Assembly: GCA_030057555.1 (NCBI GenBank) | Contig: JASGUU010000069.1 | Location: 49,921-113,920 of the forward strand | DNA from: Bacillota bacterium | Lineage (GTDB): Bacteria > Bacillota > Clostridia > Saccharofermentanales > Fastidiosipilaceae | Length of the DNA stretch: 64,000 nt | Reading direction: 5' to 3' | Part shown: piece after piece, positions 28,682-63,935 of the stretch | Layout: each line of letters begins with the position of its first letter | Position numbering within the stretch: the first letter of the stretch is position 1 | Notes under the pieces: generated by a model | What the model was told of the DNA's origin: nothing | Database searches by the model: none | What the model saw: the letters and a program-made list of their open reading frames with translations, nothing else | Position numbers and translations under genes: made by a program

Positions 28682-28740
28682 CGGGTGGCGAACGGCCGGT
28701 ACATCTTGATTTCCGGGTCGTTGGCGATCTGGTGCAGCGA
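28678..28740 (-). pseudogene. C-terminal gene remnant abutting repeat array
   Basis: About 20 minus-strand codons (ANDPEIKMYRPFATR then TAA) read with strong codon bias like the neighbours. They stop abruptly where the 71-bp-type repeat begins at 28740. The TAA overlaps the PfkB-gene stop. It looks like the end of a gene whose body was lost at the repeat boundary. The family is not recognised. Confidence 0.35.
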
Positions 28741-28922
28741 AAAACTGCGGAAACCTGAAAAACTGCACACGAGCGTTCATCGCATGTGCAAATATGCAGG
28801 TTTCCGCAGAGTCAAGTGCATAAATATTCATTTCGTTGCATAAATCAACTCTTCTATGCAGATGTGTGAATAAATATGCACGAAGCAGCCTCAAAAACTG
28901 CGGAAACCTGAAAAACTGCACA
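28740..28922. repeat. Family A palindromic repeat, two partial units and inverted arms
   Basis: AAAACTGCGGAAACCTGAAA occurs at 28741 and again near 28894, each followed by AACTGCACA. An inverted arm, GTGCAAATATGCAGGTTTCC, starts at 28785. Arm-spacer-arm geometry (22 nt, about 17 nt, 22 nt) matches the junction between two units of the array at 53150. The middle is AT-rich and diverged. Confidence 0.75.
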
Positions 28923-29100
28923 TCGAAGTCCGCGCGTACGGGTTCTGATCATCTACATCGAAGAATGATTGAAATACCCGATGCCAGAGTGTTTGCGGCT
29001 GCTGCCCTCCGGCTGAACAGAAAACGTCTGCCTTCTCTCTGCAACCTGCCGGCCTCCTGTGGCGTCTTATGTATAAGCGCGACGAAAGGAGGCGTTATCC
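28923..29100. other. Upstream region of the duplicated secreted protein gene
   Basis: No gene is seen. AAAGGAGG at about 29085 is the ribosome site of the gene starting at 29101. No clear sigma-A promoter is recognised. Confidence 0.4.
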
Positions 29101-31044
29101 ATGTTCATATCCCGCATACTCGCACTCTTCACAGCCTTCACCCTGCTGGCCGGACAGCCTGCGACCGCTGCATCCGGCGCCGCAACCGTGCCACTTGGTA
29201 CCGAGGCTCTGGCTGACTTTCCGCTCGAGGACTGGCCTGAGGAACCGGCGCCGGATCTGGCCCCCGAACCCCTCGCCTCACGTGACGATCAGGATGAGGC
29301 GGGCGAGGCCGCAACCGCCCTCAACGCCTGGCTGGCGGAGGGGGACAACGCCGACTCGTATGCCGGCTGCTACATCACGGAGCGCAACACGCTGCGCATC
29401 CTGCTGACCGACGAGGCTGTCCAGGTCGAGCTCGCCGGGCTTCTCGCCGGATGGGAGGATATCATCGAATACAACTTCGTCACGTACAGCGCTGCAGAGC
29501 TCGAGAGCTGGGCCGAGCTGCTGCGGACCAAAGTGGAAAGCGAGGCGCCCGGCGCACTCTATACCATGAGTGTGGACCAGATACGAAACCGCATACTGGT
29601 CTATATCCATGCCGACCATGCCGAAGAGGTGGCGGAGCTCGCGGGCAGTCTCGATCTCGGACGTGAGACGGAGGCGGACGAGGAGCCGCCCTTTGCCATC
29701 ATTCCTGTTGGCGAAGAGGATCTGCCGACCTACAGGCCCGAGGGTCGTGTGCTGACCGCTGAGGAGGCCGTGCTCGAAGTTGTGCCCGGCCGCGACGGTC
29801 ACCACATGGTCGTGCTCCGTGCGACGGGTTCTGAGAATCTCAGCTACGGTGCCGCCTTCCATGTCAGCCGTCTGCCGGCCGGCGCCGACCCGGAGGACGA
29901 GACGGCCTGGCTGCCGGTGCCGACGCGCATGCCTTATGTCGTGATCGACATCCTGTACTACACGGCGGCGGGGAAGGCCGCGCGCTTTGACGTTGACAGC
30001 GGCTTATGGCTGCTCGTGCCGGGTGAACGCTACCGCCTGACGAAGGAGGTCATGCTCGGCGACGATTCCGAGCCCTGCCTCGTCCATGCCGAGCTGCCCG
30101 GGCCCTGGCGCGACCCGGCGGAGGCGCGCTGGAACCGGCAGCAGCTGCTGGCCGCGCTGGCGCCGGGTGCTTACGTGGAGCCGGAAGAGACTCCCTATTT
30201 CCAGGAACAGGTAGAATGCGTGGAATGCGACCAGAGTCGGGCTCTGTCAGCCTGGCAGGTCATCGCCGAGGAGGAAGCGGTACTTGATGCCTTTCTGGAG
30301 GGGGAGCGGCTTGTGCTCCTCTATGCGGATGAGGCAGCCCGCGAGGAACTCGTTCCACAGCTTGAAGACTGGGCGGACATCATCGACTGGCAGCTGGCCT
30401 GCTACCAGGCGGATGATCTGGTGGCGCTCGCCGAGGCAACCCGGGTGCGGCTCGAGGAAGCCGGTCCCGGTATCCTCTGGTGCGTCGACTACGATACCCG
30501 GGGCAACCGCGTCCTCTGTTATGTCCATGCCGATCATCTGGAGGAGGCGGTGACGGCCTTTCAGGAGATCGAGCCGGACTTTGCCGTGCCTGAAGATGCT
30601 GCGCCGCCCATGGTGCTGGTGCCCCTGAGCCGCGCAGATCTCTTCTGGCAGGATGCGCCGGAGGGGGAAGACGGGGCCGAAATCGGGGTTACGCTGGACG
30701 TCGCCGCCGAGACGGAGGAAGGCCTGACGCTGCGGCTGCTGAATGCCGGTGAACAGACGATCACGTTCGGTGCAGCCTACCGCGTCGAGCGGCGGGTGCA
30801 GGCGGCGGGCGAAGAGCGCTGGGAGGTCGTGCCGAACAGCAGCGGCGCCTACGCCTGGCACGATCTGCTCTATGAACTGGAACCGGGCGGTGAGAGGGAG
30901 TTCCTGGTCAGGCCGGGCGACTGGCTGCTCGATCCGGGACAGGTCTATCGTGTGGGCTATACGATCATGCTGCCCGATGAGGATGACAGGAATCTCGAGC
31001 TTCATATTGAGCTGCCGCAGCTGACCCCGGAGGACTGGGACTGA
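29101..31044 (+). CDS. Secreted protein with an internal two-fold duplication, function unknown
   Basis: A 647-residue acidic, exported protein. A signal peptide (residues 1-24, ending ATAAS, no lipobox Cys) is followed by two homologous halves, about 70-335 and 382-642. Each half begins with an alpha/beta module (RNRILVYIHADHAEE in half 1, GNRVLCYVHADHLEE in half 2). Each ends in an Ig-like beta module (LSYGAAFHVSRL and ITFGAAYRVERR; then LWLLVPGERYRLTKEVML and DWLLDPGQVYRVGYTIML). The connecting segment has a CVEC motif. I do not recognise the family; the second module resembles Bacillota Ig-like domains on lipoproteins. The start is supported by AAAGGAGG 8 nt upstream. Confidence 0.8.
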   Translation: MFISRILALFTAFTLLAGQPATAASGAATVPLGTEALADFPLEDWPEEPAPDLAPEPLASRDDQDEAGEAATALNAWLAEGDNADSYAGCYITERNTLRILLTDEAVQVELAGLLAGWEDIIEYNFVTYSAAELESWAELLRTKVESEAPGALYTMSVDQIRNRILVYIHADHAEEVAELAGSLDLGRETEADEEPPFAIIPVGEEDLPTYRPEGRVLTAEEAVLEVVPGRDGHHMVVLRATGSENLSYGAAFHVSRLPAGADPEDETAWLPVPTRMPYVVIDILYYTAAGKAARFDVDSGLWLLVPGERYRLTKEVMLGDDSEPCLVHAELPGPWRDPAEARWNRQQLLAALAPGAYVEPEETPYFQEQVECVECDQSRALSAWQVIAEEEAVLDAFLEGERLVLLYADEAAREELVPQLEDWADIIDWQLACYQADDLVALAEATRVRLEEAGPGILWCVDYDTRGNRVLCYVHADHLEEAVTAFQEIEPDFAVPEDAAPPMVLVPLSRADLFWQDAPEGEDGAEIGVTLDVAAETEEGLTLRLLNAGEQTITFGAAYRVERRVQAAGEERWEVVPNSSGAYAWHDLLYELEPGGEREFLVRPGDWLLDPGQVYRVGYTIMLPDEDDRNLELHIELPQLTPEDWD

Positions 31045-31107
31045 GAAACGCTTGCTGGAGGCGGCTGCGGGCATCAGAGCTGCTGTCCCGATGCCGGGTG
31101 ACGCAGC

Positions 31108-31215
31108 TTATGCAGACGGGGGCTGGCAGGACCAGCCCTCGTCGTCGTAATAGATCATGAGCTTTCCCATGCCGTCGTCGACGATCAGGGTACGGCCGCT
31201 GAAGCTGTCACTCAC
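31108..31215 (-). CDS. Small ORF of 35 codons coupled to the ArsC-like gene
   Basis: A GTG start at 31215 overlaps the TGA of the ArsC-like gene (GTGA). The product VSDSFSGRTLIVDDGMGKLM, continuing through IYYDDEGWSCQPPSA, is compact and uses the same codon preferences as the neighbours. The function is unknown. It may be a small conserved protein or a chance extension. Confidence 0.4.
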   Translation of the reverse strand: MSDSFSGRTLIVDDGMGKLMIYYDDEGWSCQPPSA

Positions 31216-31562: not shown

Positions 31563-31592
31563 GGTGTTACCTCTTTCTCTGTTTGTTGCAGG

Positions 31593-32153: not shown

Positions 32154-32345
32154 TACTGTCTCCTTGTTTCACTGTTCGCCGCGTCTGGGCAGCGATCTGT
32201 GCTTCGGATTGTTTCAGGATAACAGACGGTGCGCCTCAGGACACGATTTGTCTACGTGGGGCAGGGTGGCGACATTTTTTCCTGAAGCCACCGGGAATCG
32301 TGCGGAACGCGAGCATGGTCAGGCAGAGGGACACGTGGGAGAAGA
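32154..32345. other. Divergent promoter spacer, part 1
   Basis: Spacer between the membrane protein gene (minus) and the aldo-keto reductase gene (plus). I see no gene and no convincing promoter. Confidence 0.4.
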
Positions 32346-32404
32346 ATTTCAAGGTTCGGGCCTCAGGACGAGCAACGCTGTCCAGAGCGTAATTTTTGCA
32401 CAGC
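32346..32404. repeat. Decayed copy of the family A palindromic repeat
   Basis: AATTTCAAGGTTCGGGCCTC at 32347, then AGGACGAG and TAATTTTTGCAC at the far end, aligns with the reverse complement of the repeat unit at 55810. The stem is no longer intact. Confidence 0.45.
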
Positions 32405-32601
32405 AAAGTTGTCCCAGCTGAAAAATCACCGCTGCAGGGGGTCGAAGGCATGCGGCGCGCAGCAAAAGCACCGCAACACCTGTGATCTGCAGACGCCGCA
32501 GGTGGTAAGGATTTCGAAACGAACAGGAATGAGACAAAAGGGTAGGATAGGTTCAGCACATATCGGCTGTGGACAGAGCATGGCAGTGAAGGAGGAGAGA
32601 T

Positions 32602-33573: not shown

Positions 33574-33657
33574 GGCCCACCCGGCCTGCTCAGGCCGCTG
33601 CCAGCGCTTCGGATCTGAGCGACGACGCCGGGGTCGCCGCCTTTCCGGCGGCTGACG

Positions 33658-34563: not shown

Positions 34564-34650
34564 TCCCGCCTCCTGTCCGCCGGCCGCCGCCTGACCCAGA
34601 TGGAGATCGCTGTCGTGTGGCGTCTGGAAAACAGCCGGCACAACCGGCCG

Positions 34651-36929: not shown

Positions 36930-36932
36930 GGA

Positions 36933-37814: not shown

Positions 37815-37876
37815 GTCTTCTTCCTCTCAGAATGGCCGTTATTCGCAGCGGCCGCTTGCCGGGCAGATTCAGGCTA

Positions 37877-44806: not shown

Positions 44807-45017
44807 TATCCATGTGTTCTCCAGCGTAATTCCACAGGATTTGTCGGCGACAACTTGTTAAGCAGTTCTTTATACCACCTGCTTCTTTCTCCGCTCCGTC
44901 TGTCCCTTTTTCCGGCTGCGCACCCAGAGTGCCTGCCGCGGGGCCTGCGGCTGCCCTCTGGGACCTCGTTGGAGCAGAAGAACGGCGCTCTTCGGACTGG
45001 GTACATTAAGCAGTAGG
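44807..45017. other. Spacer without recognised genes
   Basis: I find no supported gene or RNA here. Confidence 0.4.
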
Positions 45018-45069
45018 GAGTTTTTCAATTTAGGCGTCTTTCCGGCGCGCAGAACTTGATTATTTGCAC
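45018..45069. repeat. Family A palindromic repeat, single diverged copy
   Basis: Read on the minus strand from 45069: GTGCAAATAATCAAGTTCTG, then CGCGCCGGAAAGACGCCTAA and ATTGAAAAAC. It aligns with the unit at 53150 and is close to the copy at 46975. Confidence 0.6.
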
Positions 45070-45264
45070 AAGCTGCGGGCAGAAACGCAGCGCCCTCAAC
45101 TGCCGCCTGGGAACTGGTTAGTGAGCATCTCCGCTGTCGCTTCAGAACCTGCAGCTGTCAATCGGCCCAGATGGATGCGCTGCCTCGCTGCCATCATCCC
45201 TGCACTCCTGTGCAACCGGGAGGCGGGGATCCGCGTGTTCAGAGACAGATGGGAGGATTGGCCT
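45070..45264. other. Upstream region of serpin 1
   Basis: No gene is seen. The last 70 bp (ATCCGCGTGTTC, then AGATGGGAGGA before the ATG) are closely matched upstream of serpin 2 at 49140-49178, so the duplication included the 5' region. Confidence 0.5.
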
Positions 45265-46727: not shown

Positions 46728-46891
46728 CGTGCGCCGGGCAGGACTTTTCTGGTCAACGCCTGAGGTGGGACTGCCGTTTCTGCGCCCGTGCTGCTTCTGG
46801 GTCGCCAGGGCATCAACAGGACAGGAAAACGGGCCACCTGCGGGCCGGGCGTTCTGTGCAGGCGCTGCCGGCCCTGTTGCATAAAAGGGTC
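46728..46891. other. Spacer without recognised genes
   Basis: No supported feature is seen between the serpin terminator and the repeat copies. Confidence 0.4.
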
Positions 46892-47030
46892 GTGAGCAGG
46901 ATTTCAACGTATCCACGCGAGAACGTGTATAAGTTGATTTTTAGAGCAGAAAACCACCACTCGCACTGGATTTTGTGCAAAATTCGAGTTCTGCGCAGCG
47001 GAAATGCGCCTGAATCGAAAAACCGTGCAC
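46892..47030. repeat. Family A palindromic repeat, two diverged copies
   Basis: Copy 1 (about 46892-46955) has GTGAGCAGGATTTCAACG and GTTGATTTTTAGAGCAG arms. Copy 2 (46975-47030) begins GTGCAAAATTCGAGTTCTGC and ends AATCGAAAAACCGTGCAC. The spacer lies between convergent genes. Confidence 0.6.
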
Positions 47031-47267
47031 GGCATAATGTACCCGGCCCAAAGAGCATCATTTTGCCTGTTCCAACGAGTTCCCTGAAGACAGCCGTAGA
47101 GCAGGTTCCACACGCGGCCCGTCGAATTATGAGCCAATACCCCCGAAACCTCAGTCATCTCATGATACTGACCGCGGGCAGGAGGAAAGATCTGGACGGC
47201 AAAGGGGCCAATATACCAGGCTCTATTGTGTTCCGCCGTTTCCTGCTTCATGACCTGTAAAGTCCTG
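47031..47267. other. Spacer 3' of the flavodoxin/ferredoxin gene
   Basis: A minus-strand frame here reads like protein in places (YIGPFAVQIFPPARGQYHEM) but has no start with a ribosome site that separates it from the next gene. I do not call a gene; a relic is possible. Confidence 0.3.
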
Positions 47268-49178: not shown

Positions 49179-50660
49179 ATGAAGATGAAGCAAATGATGA
49201 TCATATCTGCCCTCTGTGGTGCGATTCTGCTGACTTCCTGCGGGACGGCGGCGACGACCGGGGATACGACGGTAGAACCGACGACAGCAGCGACGACGAC
49301 CGAGGACGGCACGACGGCGGCCGAGACAACGGCAGCCGGGACGACAGAGACGACGGCAGCCGGGACGACGGCGGTGCCTGAGACGGAGACGACGGCGGTG
49401 GAGAGCGGCGCGAACCTGAAGCGGCTCGAGCCGGTCTATGCAGCGGAAGCCTTCGACACGTCCGACAGTGCAGAAGTCACCCGGTGCCTCGCCTTTGGCA
49501 TGACCGCTGCCGAGGTGGCGATTGTCAGGGGGCTGGCGCGGCTGGCGGAGCGGGCTTTGCCTGAGCTGGCGGCGGCCAGCCCGGATGAGAACGTGGTCTT
49601 CTCGACGCCCTCACTCGCCCTCGCACTGGGCATGCTGGCTCAGGGAGCCGAGGGCGCGACGCGTGAGGAACTGCTCACGGCGCTCGACCAGCCGGAGGAC
49701 GGGGACTGGATGGCGTCGCTCATCGCCGCGCTCAACGTGAGCTGGGAGGAGGAAGATCTGCCGGAGCTGACGATCGAGTCGAGCCGGGCGCTCTGGCTGC
49801 AGGATGGCTACCGGCTGCGGGCGGAGTACGGCGAGATGGCGAGCCGGGTCTGGCACGCGGACATCAATGTCTGGGCGCCCGGGGAGCGTGACGCGGCACA
49901 CGAGACGATCGGTCAGTGGTACGAGGAGAAGAGCCACGGCCTGCTGCCGGCATCGACCGTGCCCGATGATCTGCCGAACGAAGGCACGAGCCTCATTCTG
50001 CTGGATGCCCTCTACTACAAGGCTCAGTGGCTGGAGTCCTTTGACGCCCGGGGAACGGAGGCTGACATCTTTCGTCTGGCCGACGGCGAGGTCGTCCCCG
50101 TGCTCATGATGCTGAAGCAGCTCCAGGCTCAGAGGGCGCTGGTGCGGGACGACTACCAGATTGCCCAGCTGCCGATGGCGGGTGGCTACCAGTTTGTCGT
50201 GGCGCTGCCGACGGGCGAGAGAGGTGCCGACGAGCTGCTCGCGGACAAGGATTTCCGGCGTGATTTCATGGCGTCGAGCATGAGCACGAAGGAGTATGAC
50301 ATCATGTGGCAGCTGCCGAAGCTCGATCTCGCACTCGGTGCGGACCTGCTGCCGCTGCTGCCGAAGCTCGGCGTGACGACGGCGATGAGTGCGGAGGCGG
50401 ATTTCGGCGCCCTCTTCGAGGATGCCAGGCCGGGCGACTTCGTGCTTGACGTGCTGCGCCAGGATGCGCGCCTGCTGCTGGACGAGGACGGCGTCGAGGC
50501 GGCGGCCGTGACGCTGGCGGCGGTCAAGGCGACTGCCATGCCGTCGGTGTGCGAGACGCTGGAGATGCGTCTTGACCGGCCATTTATCGCGGAGATCCGC
50601 TCGGAAGGCGGGCTGCCGCTGTTCAGCATGGTCGTGCGCGATCCCGGCGTCAGGCCGTAG
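49179..50660 (+). CDS. Lipoprotein serpin 2
   Basis: A 493-residue paralogue of the serpin at 45265. The lipobox is LLTSC (Cys21) and the Thr/Glu-rich linker (about 24-80) is longer than in serpin 1. The core is very similar (NVVFSTPSLALALGMLAQGA, hinge GVEAAAVTLAAVK, end LPLFSMVVRDPGVRP). The reactive loop differs: VKATAMPSVCETLEMRLDRP, including a Cys. The loop difference suggests a different target protease. The start at 49179 has GGGAGG upstream. The near-identical 5' flanks and terminators show that the whole unit was duplicated, with an EFR1/PfkB pair now lying between. Confidence 0.9.
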   Translation: MKMKQMMIISALCGAILLTSCGTAATTGDTTVEPTTAATTTEDGTTAAETTAAGTTETTAAGTTAVPETETTAVESGANLKRLEPVYAAEAFDTSDSAEVTRCLAFGMTAAEVAIVRGLARLAERALPELAAASPDENVVFSTPSLALALGMLAQGAEGATREELLTALDQPEDGDWMASLIAALNVSWEEEDLPELTIESSRALWLQDGYRLRAEYGEMASRVWHADINVWAPGERDAAHETIGQWYEEKSHGLLPASTVPDDLPNEGTSLILLDALYYKAQWLESFDARGTEADIFRLADGEVVPVLMMLKQLQAQRALVRDDYQIAQLPMAGGYQFVVALPTGERGADELLADKDFRRDFMASSMSTKEYDIMWQLPKLDLALGADLLPLLPKLGVTTAMSAEADFGALFEDARPGDFVLDVLRQDARLLLDEDGVEAAAVTLAAVKATAMPSVCETLEMRLDRPFIAEIRSEGGLPLFSMVVRDPGVRP

Positions 50661-51885: not shown

Positions 51886-51886
51886 C

Positions 51887-53137: not shown

Positions 53138-53149
53138 CGCAGGAGCGCG

Positions 53150-53419
53150 GTGCAATATTTCAAGTTTCCGCGCGGTTTCACTGCGGAAGGTTGAAATTTT
53201 GAGCAGGAAGGCTCTGAAATGTGCAATATTTCAAGTTTCCGCACGGTTTCACTGTGGAAGGTTGAAATTCTGCACAGAAGGGCTCTGAAATGTGCAATAT
53301 TTCAAGTTTCTGCGCGGTTTCACTGCGGAAGGTTGAAATTTTGAGCAGGAAGGCTCTGAAATGTGCAATATTTCAAGTTTCCGCACACTTTCACTGTGGA
53401 AGGTTGTAATTCTGCACAC
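53150..53419. repeat. Family A 71-bp palindromic repeat array, four units
   Basis: Units start at 53150, 53221, 53292 and 53363, exactly 71 bp apart. Each has a left arm GTGCAATATTTCAAGTTTCC, then GC, an 11-nt loop and a right arm opening GCGGAAGGTTGAAATT. The spacer of about 16 nt contains GGCTCTGAAAT. Units 1 and 3 differ by one base; units 2 and 4 share TGTGGAAGG and TTCTGCACA variants, so the array grew as a 142-bp dimer. The arms of units 2 and 4 keep pairing with a G-T wobble. It lies between convergent genes. Confidence 0.92.
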
Positions 53420-53421
53420 CC

Positions 53422-53467
53422 CGATCGTGACCCGCTCCTTCGCCCGATCGTGACCCGCACCTTCGCC
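53422..53467. repeat. Two 23-bp direct repeats
   Basis: CGATCGTGACCCGC followed by TCCTTCGCC (53422-53444) or ACCTTCGCC (53445-53467), head to tail, between the 71-bp array and the oxidoreductase stop codon. Confidence 0.7.
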
Positions 53468-53475
53468 CGGGCACG

Positions 53476-55714: not shown

Positions 55715-55738
55715 GTTTTGGAGTAGCTGTGTGTTGGT

Positions 55739-55920
55739 GTGCAAAATTTCAATCTTCCATGCTCAGAAGCTGCGGAACCTTGAAAAACTGAGCAAATCGA
55801 GGCTGAGATGTGCAACATTTCAACCTTCCGCGTCCAGAAGCCGCGGAACCTTGAAATTACGTTCATCTACCTGCATGAAGTGAGCGATTTCTCAATTTAC
55901 CGCATTCAGACAGCGGCGAG
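55739..55920. repeat. Family A 71-bp palindromic repeat array, about three units
   Basis: Units start at 55739 (GTGCAAAATTTCAATCTTCC), 55810 (GTGCAACATTTCAACCTTCC) and about 55880 (GTGAGCGATTTCTCAATTTA), 71 and 70 bp apart. Right arms are TGCGGAACCTTGAAAAACTG and CGCGGAACCTTGAAAT. The stems in units 1 and 2 are intact. It is between convergent genes. Confidence 0.85.
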
Positions 55921-55992
55921 CAACGAGGAACACAACCAGCCACAACCAGGAGTAAGTCGACAGCGATGTCAGAAATATGAACAACGGCTTTC

Positions 55993-56874: not shown

Positions 56875-57018
56875 CCTTATATGCCCTGATACGCAAAATC
56901 TCTCGCGATCCGCCCGCCCCGCACCCCGCCCCGCACCCCGTCGTCTCCCGCCAGATCGCGGTTTAGCTACGAATCAGCCATGAATGCATCCGAAACTTGC
57001 CCGAAATCCCTCCCAAAG

Positions 57019-57047
57019 CTGTCAGAATCTTAAATATAAGGTATACA
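57019..57047 (+). promoter_or_regulatory. Possible promoter of the PutP-like gene
   Basis: CTGTCA (57019-57024), 17-bp spacer, TATACA (57042-57047). Each box matches at 4 of 6 positions, 34 bp before the ATG, in an AT-rich stretch. Confidence 0.35.
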
Positions 57048-57080
57048 GATGGGAACCAATTCCGAAATGGAGACGTTGCC

Positions 57081-58661
57081 ATGGATGCCAGTCAAGTTGA
57101 AATTCTGATCGCCATGATCGCCTACATGCTTCTCATAATCGGCATAGGCGTCTACTTCTTCCGCCGCGCCAACCGCAGCCCCGCCGACTACTTCCTCGGC
57201 GGCCGCAGCCTCGGCCCCTGGATCACGGCGATGAGCGCCGAAGCCTCCGACATGAGTGGCTGGCTCCTCATGGGCCTGCCGGGCGTAGCCTACTGGTTCG
57301 GCCTCTCCGACGCCTTCTGGACCGCCATCGGCCTCGCGATCGGCACCTACCTCAACTGGCTCCTTGTCAGCCGCCGCCTGCGCGGCTACTCCGAGATCGC
57401 CGGCGACTCCTTCACCCTCCCGGAATTCTTCTCGAAGCGCTTCCACGAGAAACGCCCGATTCTCCTCAGCCTCTCCGCCCTCTTCATCCTCGTCTTCTTT
57501 GTCGTCTATGCCGCCAGCTGCTTCGTCACCGTCGGCCGCCTCTTCAGCACCCTCTTCGGCATCTCCTATGTCAGCGCGATGATCATCGGAGCGATCTTCG
57601 TCGTCCTCTACACCCTCATCGGCGGCTTCCTCGCCGAATCCGTCTCCGACTTCGTCCAGTCCATCGTCATGATCCTGGCTCTCGTCGTTGTCCTCGGCAC
57701 TGGCCTCCACTTCTCGGGCGGCATCAACAACATCATCCAGAACCTGCGCCAGTTCCCCGGCTTCCTTGACTTCATGGGCATCGCCCAGCCCGTCCTTGAA
57801 GACAACGTCCAGACCGCCACCAACGGCGTCCCGAACTTCGCCCCCCAGGCCGGTGACTACGGCTTTCTGACCATCCTCTCGACCCTCTCCTGGGGCCTCG
57901 GCTACTTCGGCATGCCGCAGGTGCTGCTGCGCTTCATGGCCATCCGCCGCCCCCACGAGCTGGTGCGCTCACGCCGCATCGCCATGATCTGGGTCACCAT
58001 CTCCCTCTTCGCCGCCGTCGCCATCGGCCTCATCGGCCGCTCGATCTTCCCGACCGCCCTCAACACCGCCGCCGCCGCTGAGACCATCTTCATCCACATG
58101 GCGACGAGCTTCATGCCCGCCTTCCTGGCCGGCATCGTCATGGCCGGCATCCTCGCCGCCACCATCTCGTCCTCGGACTCCTACCTGCTCATCGCCTCCT
58201 CCGCCGTCGCCAAGAACATCTACCACGACATCTTCCGGCGCGACGCCTCCGACCGCCAGGTTCTATGGGTCAGCCGCATCGCCCTCCTCATCATCAGCCT
58301 GCTCGGCATGTTCATCGCCCTCGATGAGAACTCGATCATCTTCCAGGTCGTCTCCTTCGCCTGGGCCGGCTTCGGCGCCACCTTCGGCCCCCTCGTGCTC
58401 TTCTCGCTCTTCTGGAAGCGCACGACCCACGCCGGCGCCGTCGCGGGCATGCTGACCGGCGGCATCATGGTCTTTGTCTGGAAGCTCGCCATCCGCCCCA
58501 TGGGCGGCGTCTTCGGCATCTACGAGCTGCTGCCGGCCTTCATCCTCTCCTCGATCGTCATCGCCGTCGTCTCGCTCATCACCCCCGAACCCTCGGCCGC
58601 CATTGCCGCCGAATTCGACACCGCCCTCGAGCACAGCCGTCACGACCCCAGCGCGATGTAG
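57081..58661 (+). CDS. putP: Sodium/proline symporter (SSS family)
   Basis: A 526-residue transporter with about 13 helices. The motif SAEASDMSGWLLMGLPGVAY and ITLPEFF-like region SFTLPEFFSKRFHEKRPIL match PutP, and a Na+-site Ser/Thr-rich segment (AATISSSDSYLLIASSAV) is present. It imports proline with Na+, for nutrition or osmoprotection. The start at 57081 has a GGAG about 9 nt upstream; an in-frame ATG 84 nt earlier lies before the promoter candidate. Its 3' end overlaps the convergent acetyltransferase gene by 22 nt. Confidence 0.88.
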   Translation: MDASQVEILIAMIAYMLLIIGIGVYFFRRANRSPADYFLGGRSLGPWITAMSAEASDMSGWLLMGLPGVAYWFGLSDAFWTAIGLAIGTYLNWLLVSRRLRGYSEIAGDSFTLPEFFSKRFHEKRPILLSLSALFILVFFVVYAASCFVTVGRLFSTLFGISYVSAMIIGAIFVVLYTLIGGFLAESVSDFVQSIVMILALVVVLGTGLHFSGGINNIIQNLRQFPGFLDFMGIAQPVLEDNVQTATNGVPNFAPQAGDYGFLTILSTLSWGLGYFGMPQVLLRFMAIRRPHELVRSRRIAMIWVTISLFAAVAIGLIGRSIFPTALNTAAAAETIFIHMATSFMPAFLAGIVMAGILAATISSSDSYLLIASSAVAKNIYHDIFRRDASDRQVLWVSRIALLIISLLGMFIALDENSIIFQVVSFAWAGFGATFGPLVLFSLFWKRTTHAGAVAGMLTGGIMVFVWKLAIRPMGGVFGIYELLPAFILSSIVIAVVSLITPEPSAAIAAEFDTALEHSRHDPSAM

Positions 58662-59131
58662 TAGGGACAGATCGTCTCGTAGCGCCCGTCCGGGAGGCGG
58701 AAACCGCCCGGTATCTCGCCCAGCTGCCGGAAGCCCAGCGACTCATAGAGTGCCCGCGCGGCCAGGTTCGATGCCACCACGGCATTGAACTGCAAAATTC
58801 GAAAGCCCATCCGCCCGGCCACCGCCAGCGAATCCAGCACCAGACGGCGCCCAATCCCGCGCCCCCGCCACCCGGCCGCCACGGCATAGCTCGCATTCGC
58901 GATATGCCCGCAGCGGCCGACATTGTTCGGGTGCAGAATATAGAACCCCACGGGCCCGCCCTCCGCTTCCGCCACGCCGCAGTGTGACTGCTCGCCAAAA
59001 AAGACAGCCGCCCCCTCCATGTCCAGCGCCTCCTCCTGCGGGAAGGCCAGTCCCTCCGCCACCACCTCATTCCAGATGACCTGCATGGCGGGCAGATCCT
59101 GCGCCTGCCAGGCCCGGACTGAAACCGTCAT
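58640..59131 (-). CDS. GNAT family N-acetyltransferase
   Basis: A 163-residue acetyltransferase. The acetyl-CoA motif A is AAGWRGRGIGRRLVLDSL (Q/RxxGxG/A), with NASYAV before it and LYESLGFRQLGEI after it. The start at 59131 has GGAGGGG 7 nt upstream. It is convergent with and overlaps the putP end. The substrate is unknown; a phosphinothricin-acetyltransferase-like role is possible. Confidence 0.85.
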   Translation of the reverse strand: MTVSVRAWQAQDLPAMQVIWNEVVAEGLAFPQEEALDMEGAAVFFGEQSHCGVAEAEGGPVGFYILHPNNVGRCGHIANASYAVAAGWRGRGIGRRLVLDSLAVAGRMGFRILQFNAVVASNLAARALYESLGFRQLGEIPGGFRLPDGRYETICPYYIALGS

Positions 59132-59174
59132 ACCAGAACCCCTCCATTCTGCTGAGATTCTAACGCAGCGGCAC

Positions 59175-59206
59175 TTGTAAACCGCATTCGACAAGCTGGT
59201 TTACAA
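59175..59206 (+). promoter_or_regulatory. BirA operator
   Basis: TTGTAAACC (59175-59183), 14 bp, GGTTTACAA (59198-59206), a perfect inverted repeat matching the known BirA operator consensus half-sites. It lies 41 bp upstream of birA. Biotinoyl-AMP-bound BirA should repress birA-bioY here. Confidence 0.9.
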
Positions 59207-59246
59207 GCGGCAGCGCCTGTGCTTCAATAGCCCATCAGGAGGAAGA

Positions 59247-60257
59247 ATGATGCGAAGCCAACCCATCTCCCGACGCGAACAGCTGCTCTCCCATCTCGAA
59301 GCGGCGGAGGGCGCCTGGCTCAGCGGCGAACGGCTCGCCGCTGAGCTCGGCGTCAGCCGCGCCGCCGTCTGGAAGCTCATCCGCGGCCTCGAAACCGACG
59401 GCATCGCGATCGAAGCCCGCCCCTCCCTTGGCTACCGCCTCGACCCCGCGACCGACCCCCTCTGCGCAGCGGCGATCGCCCGCCGCCTGACGACCCGCGA
59501 GCCGGCCGTCACGGTCGAGCACCACCCGCTCCTCGACTCCACCAACCGCCTCGCCGCCCGCCTCGCCCGCGCAGGCGCCCCGGAGGGCCATCTGGTCACC
59601 GCCTCCGCCCAGAGCTCAGGCCGCGGCCGCTGTGGCCGCAGCTTCATCTCGCCGCCCGACACGGGCGTCTACTTCAGCCTCATCCTCCGCCCCCGCCTCG
59701 CCTACGAGGACGCCCTCCTGATCACGACGACGGCCGCCGTCGCCGTCTCCGAGGCCATCCGGCGCCTTCTGCCCGGTCTCAACCCCGAGATCAAGTGGGT
59801 GAACGACATACTTCTTGATGGACGCAAAGTCTGCGGCATCCTGACCGAGGCCAGCCTGGATATGGAATCCGGCAGCATCGCCGCCCTCATCCTCGGCATC
59901 GGCATTAACGTCTATCCGCCCGCGGAGGGCTTCCCCGCCGAACTCGCCAGCATCGCCGGCGCGCTCGTGCCCGCTGTCCGCCCCGGCCTCAGGGCCAGCC
60001 TCATTGCGGCGGTCGTGGACGCATTCTTTGCATACTACCCTGCCCTGGCTGATGAAGAGGGCCGCCTGGCCATCGTCGCGGCCTACCGCGCCCGCTGCCC
60101 CATCGCCGGCCGTGCCATCACGGTGGTCGCCGGCGACGGCACGGACCGCCCGGCCACGGCCCTGGGCATTGACGACCGCGGCCGCCTCAACGTGCGCTAC
60201 GACGATGGCGGCGAAGACTGCCTCGGCTCCGGCGAAATCCGCGTGCGCCCACGCTGA
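59247..60257 (+). CDS. birA: Bifunctional biotin-[acetyl-CoA-carboxylase] ligase / biotin repressor
   Basis: A 336-residue enzyme that makes biotinoyl-AMP, transfers biotin to carrier lysines, and acts as repressor. The N-terminal winged helix (about 8-65, with LAAELGVSRAAVWKLIRGLE) precedes the ligase domain with SSGRGRCGRSF, KWVNDILLDGRKVCGIL and GIGINVY. The C-terminal SH3-like domain closes the protein. A BirA operator lies just upstream, so autoregulation is expected. It is followed after 23 nt by bioY. Confidence 0.93.
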   Translation: MMRSQPISRREQLLSHLEAAEGAWLSGERLAAELGVSRAAVWKLIRGLETDGIAIEARPSLGYRLDPATDPLCAAAIARRLTTREPAVTVEHHPLLDSTNRLAARLARAGAPEGHLVTASAQSSGRGRCGRSFISPPDTGVYFSLILRPRLAYEDALLITTTAAVAVSEAIRRLLPGLNPEIKWVNDILLDGRKVCGILTEASLDMESGSIAALILGIGINVYPPAEGFPAELASIAGALVPAVRPGLRASLIAAVVDAFFAYYPALADEEGRLAIVAAYRARCPIAGRAITVVAGDGTDRPATALGIDDRGRLNVRYDDGGEDCLGSGEIRVRPR

Positions 60258-60280
60258 GCCCCCTGTCAGGAGAAGACGAT

Positions 60281-60886
60281 ATGCACGAACGGACGAGAAA
60301 CATGATGCGGGTGGCGCTCTTTACCGCCCTGATCACGGCGGGCGCCTTCATCCGCATACCCTTCCCGCTGGTGCCCTTCACGCTGCAGTTCATGTTTGTG
60401 CTGCTGACGGGCCTGCTGCTGGAGCGGCGCCTCGCCCTGAGTGCCGTCGCCCTCTACATCCTGATGGGCCTCATCGGCCTGCCGGTCTTCACCGGAGGCG
60501 GGGGCCCGGACTACATCCTGCGGCCGACCTTTGGCTACATTGTCGGTTTCGCCGTCGGTGTCTGGGTCTCAGGCAGCATCGTTGCGGCCCGGCCCGCCGA
60601 GCGGCCCGGCTACCGCCGCCTCCTCGTAGCCTCCCTCGCCAACTTCCTGATCGTCTATGGCCTGGGCCTGATCCACCTGATTTTCGTCACGCGCATCCTG
60701 CTGGGGCGCGACACGGCTCTCGCGGTCCTCTTGTTTCAGGGCTTCGTCGTGACGGCACCGAGCGACATCGCCGCCTGCCTCGCCCTGCCCCTGGCCGCCC
60801 GCCGCCTCTATCCCTTCTTCCGCTCGGCCCCGGCCGTGCCCAGGTCCCAGTCGAAGACATTGACTTCGCGCACCCCGTCCAGATAG
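60281..60886 (+). CDS. bioY: Biotin transporter BioY
   Basis: A 201-residue membrane S-component with six helices. The signature GLPVFTGGGGPDYILRPTFG is present, and LVPFTLQ near residue 30 is typical. It imports biotin, alone or with ECF modules. AGGAG precedes the ATG. It forms an operon with birA under a BirA operator. The C-terminal tail (PAVPRSQSKTLTSRTPSR) is atypical: it lies in the segment overlapping the convergent acetyltransferase gene by 79 nt, so the stop may have been extended by drift. Confidence 0.9.
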   Translation: MHERTRNMMRVALFTALITAGAFIRIPFPLVPFTLQFMFVLLTGLLLERRLALSAVALYILMGLIGLPVFTGGGGPDYILRPTFGYIVGFAVGVWVSGSIVAARPAERPGYRRLLVASLANFLIVYGLGLIHLIFVTRILLGRDTALAVLLFQGFVVTAPSDIAACLALPLAARRLYPFFRSAPAVPRSQSKTLTSRTPSR

Positions 60887-61869
60887 ATCTCCGTCCACTC
60901 CGGCACGCGGGCGACCGAGAGCAGGCGCAGGCCGAGCTTTTCGCAGACCCGCCTGGAGGCGCGGTTTCGGACATCATTCGTGATCAGCAGGTGCTCCATG
61001 CCGTGCGCACGGGCGAGCGGTGCCAGCAGGACGAGCGCCTGCCCGGCATAGCCGCGGCCGCGCCATTCCGGCTCGATGTCATAGCCGATCTGGCCGCCGT
61101 AGAAAAGCCCCTCGCTGTAGCCGATGCGAAGGTTCATGTGCCCGACGGTCGTGTCGCCGCGGAGAATGTCAAAGAAATAGGTCGGTACGAGGCCGCGCTC
61201 CGGCTGGGCCGGGCGCATCTCGACGCAGCTCAGCGTCAACTCGCCCGCCCGCTGGTCGGGGAAGGGGATGAAGTGGTCGAAGTGCACCGGCCAGGCGAGG
61301 CTGCGGGCCAGATGGCGGCGGCTGAGCCAGACATTGCGCTCGAGCCGGAAGCCGATTTCGTCGCCGGGCCCATTCTCGCCGGCGAGCGCCCACGGCCGCC
61401 CGCCCGAGACATAGCTCTCCTGCTCCATCCCCAGGCGTTCCATGAGCCGGAGCGAGGCGCGATTGCGCGCATCCGCATGGGCGCTGACCTGTTCCAGCCG
61501 GCTTTCCGCGAAGACCAGATCCAGCAGCGCCGCCACCGCTTCCGTCGCATAGCCCTGTCCCGTATGGGCCCGGTGCAGGATCCAGGCAAGCTCGGCCGTC
61601 CGGTATCCCGTCCCCGTGACACTGACGGCGCCAATGACCCCTGTTTGGGGCAGTACGACTGCCAGATGCAAAAGCAGCCTTCCGTCCGTCAGCACCGGCT
61701 CCATAACGTCTCGGAGATAGCGCGCTGACTGCGTTCTGGTCCGGGTCCCGCGCAGCAGGTAGCGCGTAGCCACGGGGTCGGAAAAAAGGCTGTGGACCGC
61801 CTCCAGATCCCCCGGCTGAAAGGGCCGCAGCCGCAGCCGCCCGGTCTCGATCTTGTAGATGTGCATCAT
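60808..61869 (-). CDS. Tandem GNAT acetyltransferase (RimJ/RimL type)
   Basis: A 353-residue protein with two GNAT domains. Domain 1 (about 1-180) has ETGRLRLRPFQPGDLEAV, AWILHRAHTGQGYATEAVAA and MERLGMEQES. Domain 2 (about 190-345) has QIGYDIEPEWRGRGYAGQAL and RNRASRRVCEKLGLRLL. The second acetyl-CoA motif is intact, as is the first. Such doubled RimJ/RimL-like proteins often modify antibiotics or ribosomal proteins. The start at 61869 is one of two adjacent ATGs. It overlaps the convergent bioY end by 79 nt and lies 7 nt after an HTH remnant. Confidence 0.8.
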   Translation of the reverse strand: MMHIYKIETGRLRLRPFQPGDLEAVHSLFSDPVATRYLLRGTRTRTQSARYLRDVMEPVLTDGRLLLHLAVVLPQTGVIGAVSVTGTGYRTAELAWILHRAHTGQGYATEAVAALLDLVFAESRLEQVSAHADARNRASLRLMERLGMEQESYVSGGRPWALAGENGPGDEIGFRLERNVWLSRRHLARSLAWPVHFDHFIPFPDQRAGELTLSCVEMRPAQPERGLVPTYFFDILRGDTTVGHMNLRIGYSEGLFYGGQIGYDIEPEWRGRGYAGQALVLLAPLARAHGMEHLLITNDVRNRASRRVCEKLGLRLLSVARVPEWTEIYLDGVREVNVFDWDLGTAGAERKKG

Positions 61870-61876
61870 ATTTATC

Positions 61877-62011
61877 TCAGCGCAGCCTGTACTTTGTCCC
61901 TCGCCCGCCGCCCAGGGCGGAGACATGGTATTTCTCCGTCAGTTCTTTGAGCCGTCTCAGGATGTTACTTTTACTGTAGCCCGTCCTGTCGGCTGTTTCA
62001 CTGCTGGACCA
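61877..62011 (-). pseudogene. Remnant of a winged-helix C-terminal domain
   Basis: 44 minus-strand codons and a stop encode DRTGYSKSNILRRLKELTEK and VSALGGGRGTKYRLR. This is the winged helix tail that ends many Fic-type and AlbA/RecG-like ATP-binding proteins (GRGTKY). There is no start codon. The upstream part seems to continue in another frame (DEAKIMAAQNDG), implying a frameshift. Its stop is 8 bp before the acetyltransferase ATG. Confidence 0.6.
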
Positions 62012-62317
62012 TCATTTTGTGCTGCCATGATTTTAGCCTCATCGCTGCAGCTTTCATACACCGCTGCTGTCGTCCGAAGTTCCACTGGCCTGAGCGGTCG
62101 GACATCAGATAATGGAGGCGCAGCAGACAAACGCAGCAGAGACTTGGAACACAACGGAAAAGCGAAACCATGAACTGCCCCTCTGATGTCGCCAGAGGGT
62201 TCTGTTTCCGTCATTCTCTGTCAAAGTCGAGAGAACAGCAGGTTTCACTGAGATTCACGTTTACCCGACGTTTTGATGCCTTCAATTGTATTAGTAGTGA
62301 AAGGAGGGCCGGGCGAG
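62012..62317. other. Upstream region of the ECF sigma gene
   Basis: Apart from possible further decayed sequence of the remnant above, no gene is seen. AAAGGAGG at about 62300 is the ribosome site of the sigma factor. I cannot pick a promoter with confidence. Confidence 0.4.
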
Positions 62318-62809
62318 ATGTCAAAGTCTTTGTTGCGTACGGACAAAGAAATTGCGGAACTATACACCCGCCACAGCAGGACGGTCTATCGTGTCTGCTT
62401 TGCGTACATGAAGAACCCTGCTGACACCGAGGATGCCGTTCAGGATACCTTCTTTCAGCTGATCCGGAGCGGGCCGGCTTTTAACAGCGAAGAGCACGAA
62501 AAAGCCTGGCTCATCAGGACTGCGACGAATATATGCAAAAACCTTCTGCGGCACTGGTGGCGCCGGCGGGAGAGCCTGGATAAATACCATTCGCTCTCCG
62601 GTCCGCGACAGCCTGAGATAGACGAAGTGTTTCAGGTGGTCATGGAGCTTCCCCAAAAGTATAAGACGGTGGTCTATCTGTACTACTACGAAGGCTATTC
62701 CAGTGTGGACATCGCCGGCATCCTGAAAAAACCGCAATCGACCATCCGCAATTATCTGCACGAGGCACGTGCCATCCTCAAAGAAAGGCTGGGTGATGAT
62801 GTTCAATGA
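62318..62809 (+). CDS. ECF-type RNA polymerase sigma factor
   Basis: A 163-residue sigma-70 family factor with only regions 2 and 4. Region 2 covers about 10-75 (FAYMKNPADTEDAVQDTFFQ), and region 4 about 105-158 (LPQKYKTVVYLYYYEGYSSV, then IAGILKKPQSTIRNYLHEAR as helix-turn-helix). The start at 62318 has AAAGGAGG about 10 nt upstream. It overlaps the next gene by 4 nt (ATGA). Sigma and the membrane protein behind it form a typical envelope-signal pair. Confidence 0.9.
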   Translation: MSKSLLRTDKEIAELYTRHSRTVYRVCFAYMKNPADTEDAVQDTFFQLIRSGPAFNSEEHEKAWLIRTATNICKNLLRHWWRRRESLDKYHSLSGPRQPEIDEVFQVVMELPQKYKTVVYLYYYEGYSSVDIAGILKKPQSTIRNYLHEARAILKERLGDDVQ

Positions 62810-63561
62810 GAAACGAAAGGATCTTTGCCGCATGGAAGCAAATTGAACCGGGCGCTGCGGCGGATGAGCGCATGCTCGCGGCGATACTCGAGCGGAACCG
62901 TTCCGTTCATGATGGCAAGGCCAAGGTGAACGCCATGTCAAAAACGAAGATCACGCTGCTGACGGCGGCTGCCTGCCTGGTGCTGCTTGTCGCAGCAACT
63001 GTAATCGTGGGCAACAGCCTGAACTGGTTCAGAACGGAGTACGATGCCGCGGCCGGCGCCCCTGGAGCAGTCGTCCCCGGCGGTACTTTGCCCGACGGAG
63101 TCGACCCTGTCATGGCCAGTGTGGCTGTGTTTCCTGCTGACAGAAGTCTGTCGGATGTTGCCTCTGCCACGCTGAAGCAGATAACGGAAGCGGAGGCGCA
63201 TGGCACTGTCGAACTGGGAGATCATCTCCCTACATCCATTCCTGATCCCTATCAGTTCAGTCATGCCAGTCTCTATGAGACGACCATGAAAGATGGAACG
63301 AAATACTATCTGTTGCGGGTTCACTATTCGACCGGTGACAGGAGCAATCTGGATATGGACAAGCACGCTCCTGACTTTTTCATACAGTTGCTGAACTACA
63401 GGCCGAACACGAAAAAGACCATCTACACGATCGATACAATTCCCGCTGAGCTTTCCGGGAAAGGATTCCTGCATGTAGCCTGCGGTGACTTCCATGTCGG
63501 CTTCGACTATGGCGAATTGACGCAGGATGAAATCATGCAGGTACTGAATTCGATCAGCTGA
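62806..63561 (+). CDS. Putative membrane-bound anti-sigma factor
   Basis: A 251-residue single-pass membrane protein. The cytoplasmic N-terminus (1-47) is followed by a helix at about 48-68 (ITLLTAAACLVLLVAATVIV) and an extracellular domain (about 75-251). It is coupled to the sigma gene by ATGA, as anti-sigma factors are. The N-terminal part does not show a clear zinc anti-sigma (HxxxCxxC) motif, and the outer domain is not recognised, so the role is inferred from position and topology. Confidence 0.7.
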   Translation: MRNERIFAAWKQIEPGAAADERMLAAILERNRSVHDGKAKVNAMSKTKITLLTAAACLVLLVAATVIVGNSLNWFRTEYDAAAGAPGAVVPGGTLPDGVDPVMASVAVFPADRSLSDVASATLKQITEAEAHGTVELGDHLPTSIPDPYQFSHASLYETTMKDGTKYYLLRVHYSTGDRSNLDMDKHAPDFFIQLLNYRPNTKKTIYTIDTIPAELSGKGFLHVACGDFHVGFDYGELTQDEIMQVLNSIS

Positions 63562-63584
63562 GCTTTGAAAGTGGATCCATTACG

Positions 63585-63622
63585 ACGTGCCCTGCAGGCT
63601 GGAAACTTGCGGGGCACGTTTG
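63585..63622 (+). terminator. Hairpin after the sigma/anti-sigma operon
   Basis: ACGTGCCCTGCA (63585-63596) pairs with TGCGGGGCACGT (63608-63619), with one G-T pair, followed by only two or three Ts. It lies 23 nt after the stop. Confidence 0.55.
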
Positions 63623-63805
63623 CGTGTGTGCACTAATCTCACAGGTGAGGCAGGTAGAAACTCTTTTTCACTCATAGGCAGATTACGAGCTGCGCCCCGA
63701 GCTTGTGTACCGCTTGCGCAGTTCTTTCGTGCTGTCTGCTTCCGTCGAGCACTGCCGGATCATCAATACATGAGCGGCTTTACAGGTCTGGGTAGAGTAT
63801 GCAGT
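63623..63805. other. Spacer without recognised genes
   Basis: No supported gene, RNA or regulatory site is seen between the hairpin and the repeat. Confidence 0.4.
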
Positions 63806-63935
63806 GTGCAAAAATTAAATATATGCTCCGCTTTCCGTGTATAGGTCGAAAAGTTGAGCGAAAAGCCAAAGGTATTTGCTCAATTTCTCGATTTGTACGC
63901 AGCTTCTCGTGTACTAGTCGATTTTCTGCTCGGTC
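63806..63935. repeat. Family A palindromic repeat, two diverged units
   Basis: Unit 1 begins GTGCAAAAATTAAATATATG and has TCGAAAAGTTGAGC as right arm. Unit 2 begins at about 63876 (TTGCTCAATTTCTCGATTTG) and ends TCGATTTTCTGCTC. The spacing is about 70 bp. Sequence identity is low but layout and end motifs match the family. Confidence 0.5.

Follow-up and report, generated by a model that had tools for sequence, protein, structure and literature searches.

What are the palindromes that recur between the genes of this stretch of DNA, and what multiplies them? The window, 64,000 nt in length, comes from the draft genome (G000, 96% complete) of a Bacillota bacterium of the Fastidiosipilaceae (GCA_030057555.1). 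The initial annotation described one interspersed palindrome family at seven sites, near 28.7, 32.3, 45.0, 46.9, 53.2, 55.7 and 63.8 kb. Our analysis finds real palindromes at six of the seven and divides them between two related families, here called families 1 and 3, while the 32.3 kb site is unsupported. All seven sites are intergenic, as had been claimed, by the gene calls made in this analysis.

Palindrome families and their geometry

Family 1 palindromes consist of two 24-base arms and a 9-base loop and recur at a step of 71 bp, each palindrome being an imperfect inverted pair of one 24-base arm. The family 1 model was built from 33 units, all from outside the window, with its noise level set at 9.7 bits, the best score among 40 shuffled windows. 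It recovers an array of four 57-base units at 53150..53418 (no strand assigned; 46.7-55.8 bits, plus-strand model scores), namely 53,149-53,205, 53,220-53,276, 53,291-53,347 and 53,362-53,418, spaced by a 71-bp step. Alternating spacers give this array a 142-bp higher-order repeat. Two further units 71 bp apart, the second truncated, lie at 55738..55858 (no strand assigned; 40.0-46.6 bits by strand). A long nested form occupies 28734..28922 (no strand assigned), where half-sites scoring up to 18.7 bits (28,734-28,769; 28,785-28,813, weak at 11.8 bits; 28,893-28,922) flank an inner GCATAAATATTCA palindrome; this site matches contigs C192 and C66 of a second genome of the genus, G001, at 70% over 177 bp. 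Family 1 is limited to these three sites: scores at 46.9 (8.9 bits), 32.3 (8.3 bits), 45.0 (6.9 bits) and 63.8 kb (1.5 bits) do not rise above the shuffles.

The sites at 45.0, 46.9 and 63.8 kb belong instead to family 3, an element of ~175 bp in which two palindromes are joined by a conserved linker, AAACCACCACTCGC. Its model was built without the window copy, and the best of 40 shuffles reached 8.1 bits. The window holds a complete element with both palindromes and the linker on the plus strand at 46873..47045 (154.8 bits; 40 matches in its own genome, itself included), a half element with the second palindrome and the end on the minus strand at 44997..45071 (34.5 bits; 75.8% to the 46.9 kb copy over 128 bp), and a diverged copy with both palindromes on the minus strand at 63788..63948 (63.1 bits). 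Kinship between families 1 and 3 follows from the 20.4 bits that the 53.2 kb array reaches with the family 3 model. Similarity outside the 53 and 55 kb sites thus exceeds chance at 28.7 kb for family 1 and at 45.0, 46.9 and 63.8 kb for family 3. The exception is 32343..32408 (no strand assigned), a candidate decayed fragment of a further variant, which stays below the shuffle maximum; its local matches (E 3e-5 to 0.002) are confined to a few loci retrieved for unrelated purposes.

One array is additional to the seven sites. At 14511..14708, on the minus strand of the family 2 model, three 56-base units follow each other at a 71-bp step inside a MITE-like inverted-repeat element of 601 bp (14193..14793, no strand assigned), which is itself nested within another repeat with CCATTTTG flanks. 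The arms of family 2 are unrelated in sequence to those of family 1, yet the unit is nearly the same size and the step is the same. A scan of sequence from this genome gave unit lengths of 57 for family 1 (36 units) and of 56 (90 units) and 55 (2 units) for family 2, together with one unit of length 63 from a further variant.

The period of 70-71 bp first proposed holds well. All 48 pairs of neighbouring full family 1 units are 70-72 bp apart, 38 of them exactly 71, and the same 70-72 bp range covers 95/95 neighbouring family 2 pairs in this genome and 69/73 in G001. Other spacings occur: family 3 palindromes are ~82 apart (by eye), nested family 1 palindromes ~152, and one G001 array has a 61 bp step. 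The expectation of hundreds of copies is likewise borne out, with at least 104 family 1 and at least 143 family 2 matches (half-sites and partials included) in 282 kb of this genome's sequence, and at least 41 family 3 copies in the genome. The latter were counted only above 50 bits, a tally of 86 matches including reverse-strand and family 1 cross-matches. The copies are interspersed across many contigs.

Loops and spacers are alike inside one array and differ from array to array, their lengths being conserved while the letters vary; copies of family 3 keep invariant columns amid differences elsewhere, and insertion sequences are seen within arrays. One could read the arrays as plain decaying tandem repeats, satellite-like and functionless, lacking dedicated mobility and spread passively by, for example, the family 2 MITE. 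Their internal likeness, their mutual differences, the 142-bp repeat at 53.2 kb and the resident insertion sequences would suit such decay, but the retention of loop and spacer lengths through letter changes and the invariant family 3 columns argue against it, and we regard it as very improbable. CRISPR arrays were rejected, the spacers being near-identical within an array and not unique.

Gene neighbourhoods and a second species

When 94 arrays were compared with the gene calls (7 arrays below 18 bits dropped), none lay inside a called gene. The claim that the sites fall mostly between convergent genes is true of 46.9, 53.2 and 55.7 kb, but 28.7 and 45.0 kb lie between tandem genes and 32.3 kb between divergent ones, and 63.8 kb has no right-hand gene within the window. 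Across the genome, 21 of the 36 family 3 copies with both neighbours sit in convergent and 2 in divergent spacers, against a window baseline of 9 convergent and 9 divergent among 41 gene junctions. In tandem-gene spacers, family 1 is closer to the upstream gene's end in 11/13 cases; family 2 has no clear preference for gene orientation. Families 1 and 3 are probably placed as they are because copies survive more readily at gene ends than at promoters.

G001, a different species, is the sole same-genus genome for comparison, and the two draft assemblies comprise 90 and 240 contigs. Families 1, 2 and 3 are matched in two species of a single genus: each of three query searches against 58 genomes matched 2/58, both in that genus, and the 56 other relatives gave no match to the palindrome families with these queries. 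The empty-site comparison suggested by the initial annotation was informative at two spacers. The 53.2 kb array is missing from the syntenic G001 spacer, and at 46.9 kb the flanking BLAST matches are 544 bp apart here versus 15 bp in G001, where the orthologous stretch has no family 1 or 3 match. At the spacer orthologous to 55.7 kb, G001 carries family 1 in the long nested form, so that the species differ in form; the 63.8 kb family 3 copy is conserved (C41:6640-6799, 59.1 bits). Because the comparison involves one same-genus genome and two draft assemblies, absence at a G001 site may also represent loss.

These differences between species, together with the family 2 carrier and the independence of the arms described below, point to the explanation that we favour and to which we give an even chance: the palindromes are REPIN/MITE-like non-autonomous elements whose arms are bound as duplex by a protein encoded elsewhere, with local amplification of arrays. 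The families are likely to be miniature non-autonomous mobile DNA elements, although for families 1 and 3 we infer the mobility. The arms would be recognised as duplex DNA, the mobilising protein would be encoded elsewhere, and arrays with a 71-base step would lengthen locally as unequal exchange duplicates units in tandem.

The main rival would have the arrays serve a chromosomal protein as standing binding sites at gene ends, with a part in supercoiling or chromosome organisation; they would be multiplied by selection and not be selfish. E. coli BIME-2 arrays bind gyrase, and binding of gyrase, IHF or Pol I is a mark of BIMEs. Binding sites would account for a 71-bp step held by two families of unrelated sequence and, in family 2, by two species, for arms that act like independent half-site copies and for the convergent-gene bias of family 3. 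However, the step is not universal (~82 in family 3, ~152 in nested family 1 and 61 bp in the G001 array), the sister species lacks both the 53.2 and the 46.9 kb element, and family 2 has no clear orientation preference and is carried in an inverted-repeat element. We consider such standing sites possible, though unlikely.

Carrier element, candidate transposases and arm pairing

Family 2 is carried by an element of ~600 bp with GGGTGCACGTCA inverted ends. It is present in 23 copies complete at either end (362-743 bp, terminal inverted repeats, non-coding body), and 23 of the 40 family 2 arrays found lie inside such a copy. A tandem palindrome array within a MITE is, to our knowledge, unusual. 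Direct repeats of 7-9 bp flank 3/17 un-nested copies, where 401 shuffles gave 0.24 on average and at most 3; this would suit mobile elements. Against that reading, repeats directly adjoining the element ends are absent in 22/23 copies, and none of 16 family 1 arrays has flanking direct repeats (6 or longer). Families 1 and 3 showed no outer inverted-repeat frame.

RAYT transposases, found in Proteobacteria and some other phyla, are the best-known company of high-copy intergenic palindromes. The RAYT-like transposase that the initial annotation proposed to look for did not appear: the Y1 tyrosine transposase domain PF01797 has no match in this draft genome. Since Y1 was searched for and not found here, the mover would be a protein other than Y1. 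In G001, PF01797 matches a single piece, interrupted by four stops and flanked by two other palindrome arrays. The piece resembles an IS200 TnpA, and neither family 1 nor family 2 units occur in its 3.2-kb locus (best 2.0 bits with those two models). The transposase searches covered PF01797 and PF00665. An integrase-core transposase (PF00665) was rejected as the driver at three loci, two in this genome and one in G001, which have no family 1, 2 or 3 match above 4.3 bits. That neither search yielded a transposase with such ends counts against mobile elements. The tag GTAG is found in 0/43 and CGTC in 1/43 family 1 spacers (by eye; family 1 only). A phage or plasmid origin was also set aside: the 53.2 kb array has no match in phage and plasmid collections, no viral contig has the family 1 arm pattern, and the one viral contig that contains the family 3 linker reaches no more than 7.5 bits with that family's model.

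Are the arms recognised as duplex or as a folded strand? In family 3, 76.4% of cells are paired, compared with 76.2% (sd 0.6) after re-dealing partners, and family 2 arms in this genome pair at 18.04/24 positions within a unit versus 18.18 between arrays. Compensatory stem changes do not exceed shuffles in families 1, 3 or own-genome family 2. A maintained hairpin is unsupported in these three sets because same-copy arms pair no better than different-copy arms. Uncorrelated arms are also expected from neutral decay of old copies. In G001, 16/72 family 2 units have the same three bases swapped in one arm and in the other, which raises pairing within units (18.58 versus 17.71); in a smaller G001 subset of family 2, comprising 16 units from 4 arrays, pairing within units (18.12) is below other-array pairing (19.43).

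Family 1 arms appeared to avoid pairing (79.8% versus 84.4% in shuffles). Because arrays lie in both orientations, part of this effect is artefactual; once they are oriented, the deficit is 0.76 pairs of 24, and its improbability depends on the number of arrays counted as independent. The deficit is largest at arm position 17, where 0/36 units are complementary versus a fraction of 0.37 expected (arrays oriented). In family 2, most mismatches are G.T when read on the strand carrying the T-rich loop. Both the position-17 mismatch and this one-strand bias would fit folded-strand better than duplex recognition and, with the G001 swap, weigh against our preferred reading. Strand preference is absent in family 3 (G.T 88, A.C 96) and in oriented family 1 (G.T 31, A.C 33), in keeping with duplex recognition.

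One possible alternative is that these are genuine REPIN/RAYT-type elements, which fold into single-strand hairpins and whose mover, a Y1 tyrosine transposase, was later lost. The family 1 arm mismatch recalls the conserved stem bulge described as needed by E. coli TnpA_REP (PMC8266576), and the wobble bias of family 2 and the broken Y1 piece between palindrome arrays in G001 agree with it. However, this genome has no Y1_Tnp, the G001 piece resembles an IS200 TnpA and its locus is free of family 1 and 2 units, the tags are all but missing from family 1 spacers, and compensatory changes, reported as common in REPINs (PMC3116915), show no excess in families 1, 3 and own-genome 2. We judge a lost Y1 system improbable.

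RNA hairpins at transcript ends, acting as terminators or stabilisers co-transcribed with the adjacent gene, could explain the gene-end location and the wobble pairs on one strand in family 2. The unit at 53,220-53,276 has a predicted fold of -27.2 kcal/mol (two other units, -11.0 and -13.1), and a terminator-like site lies within the 46.9 kb element. Yet such sites are no commoner than in shuffles (9 versus 12.2 in 44.6-64 kb), families 1 and 3 have no strand preference, family 3 no covariation and family 2 no clear orientation preference, and the whole window has no Rfam match at gathering. At E 0.5, 11 loci gave a single miRNA-family match (E 0.43, below the gathering score). Covariant-looking family 3 stems and a gene ending towards one side in 15/17 copies had first hinted at an RNA element; it was dropped when 41 copies showed gene ends on both sides and shuffles erased the covariation. 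Transcript-end hairpins therefore seem quite improbable to us.

More tentatively than the mobile-element reading itself, we suggest that the genus may have a new mobile or chromosome-organising palindrome system, in which several families with unrelated inner arms follow one blueprint and a non-Y1 protein, reading the arms as half-sites in duplex form, sets the array step. That blueprint, put forward just as tentatively, would combine TGNNCA-type ends, 24-base arms, a loop of ~6-9 bases and a mostly 70-71-bp step. Hundreds of units in several sequence families on one geometry, in a genus of Bacillota whose genome gives no Y1 match, would suggest that a different protein can maintain such palindrome populations. 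Whether arms pair better within a copy than between copies is a simple test of duplex versus folded-strand recognition that is applicable to other repeat families.

Relation to known repeat systems

The likeness to REP, BIME and MITE families first proposed survives in behaviour (interspersed, intergenic, hundreds of copies, presence/absence between species), but not as a single family or with a RAYT driver. Our literature search, partial in coverage, found no description of these palindrome families, so one may exist elsewhere. REPINs or REP doublets of Pseudomonas and E. coli, as described in PMC3116915, have inverted conserved ends around a variable middle and are intergenic, with hundreds of copies and some tandem clusters. 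Our palindromes share the hairpin-capable inverted conserved ends, the intergenic location and the high copy number, but differ in the absence of a detected RAYT, of the GTAG tag and of excess compensatory changes, in their Bacillota host, and in their 24-base arms and strict 71-bp arrays. The GTAG- and CGTC-tagged REP superfamilies are short palindromes at gene ends, the CGTC REPs being without a dedicated transposase (PMC3733652). Our families resemble them in both respects, whereas the tag is absent here (family 1 spacers, one CGTC in 43) and the main text of PMC3733652 does not mention Firmicutes.

BIMEs contain a repeated module in alternating orientation with linkers (PMC2817692), and enterobacterial REPs are reported to lie in convergent-gene spacers and to serve as insertion-sequence targets (PMC1525189). 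Alternating modules with linkers, convergent-gene spacers and insertion sequences in arrays all recur here; the difference is that a single E. coli REP is an imperfect palindrome by itself (PMC8266576), while here two arms make one palindrome. Compared with bacterial MITEs, families 1 and 3 show no such frame and family 1 has no flanking repeats, whereas family 2 arrays recall them, their ~600-bp carrier having GGGTGCACGTCA inverted ends and, in some copies, flanking repeats of 7-9 bp.

Supported sites and anatomy of the palindromic units

The initial annotation described one interspersed palindrome family in at least seven intergenic spacers. We scored the window, together with 40 block-wise dinucleotide shuffles, against a model of family 1 (palindromes with two 24-base arms and a 9-base loop) derived from 33 units, none of which lies in the window. 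The sites at 53.2, 55.7 and 28.7 kb scored above the best shuffle (9.7 bits), and the remaining four named sites did not. The 46.9 kb spacer, used as a query, returned 40 matches in its own genome, itself included. A model of this ~175-bp element (family 3), made without the window copy, scored 154.8 bits at 46.9 kb, 63.1 bits at 63.8 kb and 34.5 bits at 45.0 kb, with shuffles at 8.1 bits or less; it also found the 53.2 kb array (20.4 bits). The 32.3 kb site was unsupported on both models; its sole matches were local ones, with loci that had been retrieved for different purposes. Thus, the model scores against shuffles support six of the seven sites, including 28.7, 46.9, 63.8 and 45.0 kb beyond the two at 53 and 55 kb, and place them in two related families rather than one.

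The family 1 unit spans 57 bases (TGNNCA, approximately AATTTCAA, two variable bases, TTCCGCA, the loop, then the inverse) and is trailed by a spacer of ~14 bases. Scanning the fetched loci with two requirements only, TGNNCA at each end and an arm complementarity of 66% or more, yielded 205 distinct units, with own-genome lengths of 57 (36 units), 56 (90), 55 (2) and 63 bases (one unit of another variant). A comparable scan of the window found six units, three at 53.2 kb and three at 14.5 kb, while two of 30 shuffles gave one unit each and the other 28 none. The 14.5 kb units (family 2) are of nearly equal size, and their arms, TGGTCA...AGTAATCCAAA, are unrelated to those of family 1.

Counting neighbouring full units only, with at least 53 bases matched, the own-genome step is 70-72 bp in 48/48 family 1 pairs (exactly 71 in 38) and 95/95 family 2 pairs (exactly 71 in 88); in the same-genus sister species, G001, 69/73 family 2 pairs fall in this range (exactly 71 in 67). 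The proposed 70-71 bp period is therefore well founded for these pairs and is not universal, as the nested long form of family 1 (window 28.7 kb) steps by ~152 bp and one further G001 array by 61 bp. The inner part of the nested form (window 28808-28885) bears what we take to be a likeness to arginine-repressor boxes. The 61-bp array is one of two additional palindrome arrays in G001 locus L150 (contig C163; 910-1185 and 2080-2410), which have 70- and 61-bp steps, arms again of ~24 bases, and ends TGTCAA/TTGTCA and TGGACA/TGACCA.

Loops and spacers are nearly alike inside one array; across arrays the letters change and the length is kept. By eye, spacers remain similar from one array to the next, so they are probably part of the element and evolve at a faster pace. 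In the arrays at 53.2 kb and C87:102,153, two spacer types alternate, which points to duplication of dimers in tandem. Directly after the 53.2 kb array lies a 23-bp tandem repeat of 2.2 copies (window 53420-53469); the aligned spacer of G001 shows none.

Distribution, gene context and the sister species

With a cut-off of 18 bits, the own genome (2.9 Mb, 90 draft contigs) contains at least 31 arrays of family 1 and 40 of family 2, and G001 at least nine and 14, respectively; family 3 has at least 41 own-genome copies scoring over 50 bits. These totals are lower bounds, since each genome search scored a restricted set of candidates and some arrays were fetched by hand. Among 58 genomes searched with each family, matches occurred solely in these two.

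The intergenic placement was confirmed: none of 94 arrays (seven below 18 bits dropped) lies inside a gene, as called by our own codon-usage analysis without annotation. The claim that most lie between convergent genes holds for family 3 only (21 convergent, 13 tandem and 2 divergent among 36 copies with both neighbours), judged against the window background of 9 convergent, 23 tandem and 9 divergent junctions. Own-genome family 1 positions are 7 convergent, 13 tandem, 5 divergent and 6 without assignment, and 11 of the 13 tandem spacers place the array closer to the upstream gene's end than to the next gene's start. Family 2 has no clear preference (8 convergent, 14 tandem, 12 divergent, 6 without assignment). 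Tandem gene copies with 80-82% identical blocks occupy window 45175-46653 and 49194-50660, the first of them giving a Pfam serpin-family match (E 1.5e-51).

Contig C66 of G001 runs collinear with most of window 29.1-62.1 kb. Measured from one flanking BLAST match to the other, the spacer at 53.2 kb is ~340 bp long versus 107 bp in G001, where family 1 gave no match, and the 46.9 kb spacer 544 bp versus 15 bp, where neither family 1 nor 3 matched. At 55.7 kb both species carry family 1, as short units in the window and nested long units in G001, and the 63.8 kb element is found in both. The suggested empty-site comparison thus yields elements missing from G001 but no clean insertion ends, because the spacers themselves do not align, and a single comparison cannot separate gain from loss. 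Within window 56962-64000, two stretches share 89% and 92% identity with G001, versus 74-82% for the larger neighbouring blocks and 87% for one short block; the two species may have exchanged DNA recently.

Arm pairing and a proposed mechanism

If the hairpin were selected, arms of the same copy should pair better than arms from different copies. The family 3 set comprised 35 sequences, among them the 63.8 kb copy and one copy from G001. Of its cells, 76.4% were paired versus 76.2% with partners dealt anew; the covariation score was 0.181 (0.173 when shuffled), and 97/500 shuffles reached 0.181. G.T mismatches number 88 and A.C mismatches 96, nearly the same, so no strand is favoured; the corresponding family 1 counts are 31 and 33. 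Own-genome family 2 units pair equally with themselves and with other arrays (18.04 versus 18.18 of 24). Across all G001 family 2 units, same-unit pairing is higher (18.58 versus 17.71) because three adjacent pairs changed in both arms together in 16/72 units. In family 1, pairing is lower within units than between arrays, and part of this deficit comes from opposite array orientation. Uncorrelated arms would also follow from decay of most copies, and the test therefore speaks against a maintained fold without proving duplex binding.

We favour one mechanistic model, which we regard as evenly balanced between right and wrong. Non-autonomous elements would be moved by way of a protein, inferred only and encoded elsewhere, that reads the arms as duplex DNA, and arrays would then grow locally in tandem. 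Two details fit recognition of a folded strand better: family 1 arm position 17 is mismatched in 36/36 units, whatever the letters, and family 2 wobble mismatches are biased to one strand. These are the strongest evidence for folded-strand recognition and weigh against duplex reading.

Aligned flanks of family 2 arrays outline an element with ends GGGTGCACGTCA...TGACGTGCACCC, present in 23 two-ended copies of 362-743 bp. The window copy (14193-14793, 601 bp) is an inverted-repeat element with a central tandem palindrome array, nested in another repeat whose CCATTTTG flank is seen at 6/23 copies. In 22/23 copies no repeat directly abuts the ends, which slightly weakens the mobile duplex model. 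With an offset allowed, 7-9 bp direct repeats flank 3 of the 17 copies left after removing the six nested ones (shuffled flanks: mean 0.24, maximum 3, 401 shuffles); family 1 arrays had flanking direct repeats at 0/16.

The RAYT-like transposase that the initial annotation had listed for searching did not emerge: the own genome has no Y1_Tnp, and the sole G001 piece, whose residues presumably resemble IS200 TnpA, carries four stops and lies between the two L150 palindrome arrays (70- and 61-bp steps). Three integrase-core loci contained no units.

Comparison with known repeat systems

The comparison with REP, BIME or MITE families is apt for the inverted-repeat frame of family 2 and for behaviour, in which REPINs are the most alike: PMC3116915 describes inverted conserved ends, a variable middle and tandem clusters, as here. 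REPIN membership fails on three features, namely transposase, tag and compensatory changes. The 71-bp figure for GI doublets in the same paper is taken as coincidence with our 71-bp step. In E. coli REPs, a conserved stem mismatch is required by TnpA_REP, according to PMC8266576, and resembles the family 1 arm mismatch. REPs also serve as insertion-sequence targets (PMC1525189); here, the same insertion sequence cuts one family 1 and one family 2 array (right end of locus L011, left end of L038), and a second, whose ends read TGTACCCC, seems to divide a single family 1 array between two contigs (right end of L029, left end of L019).
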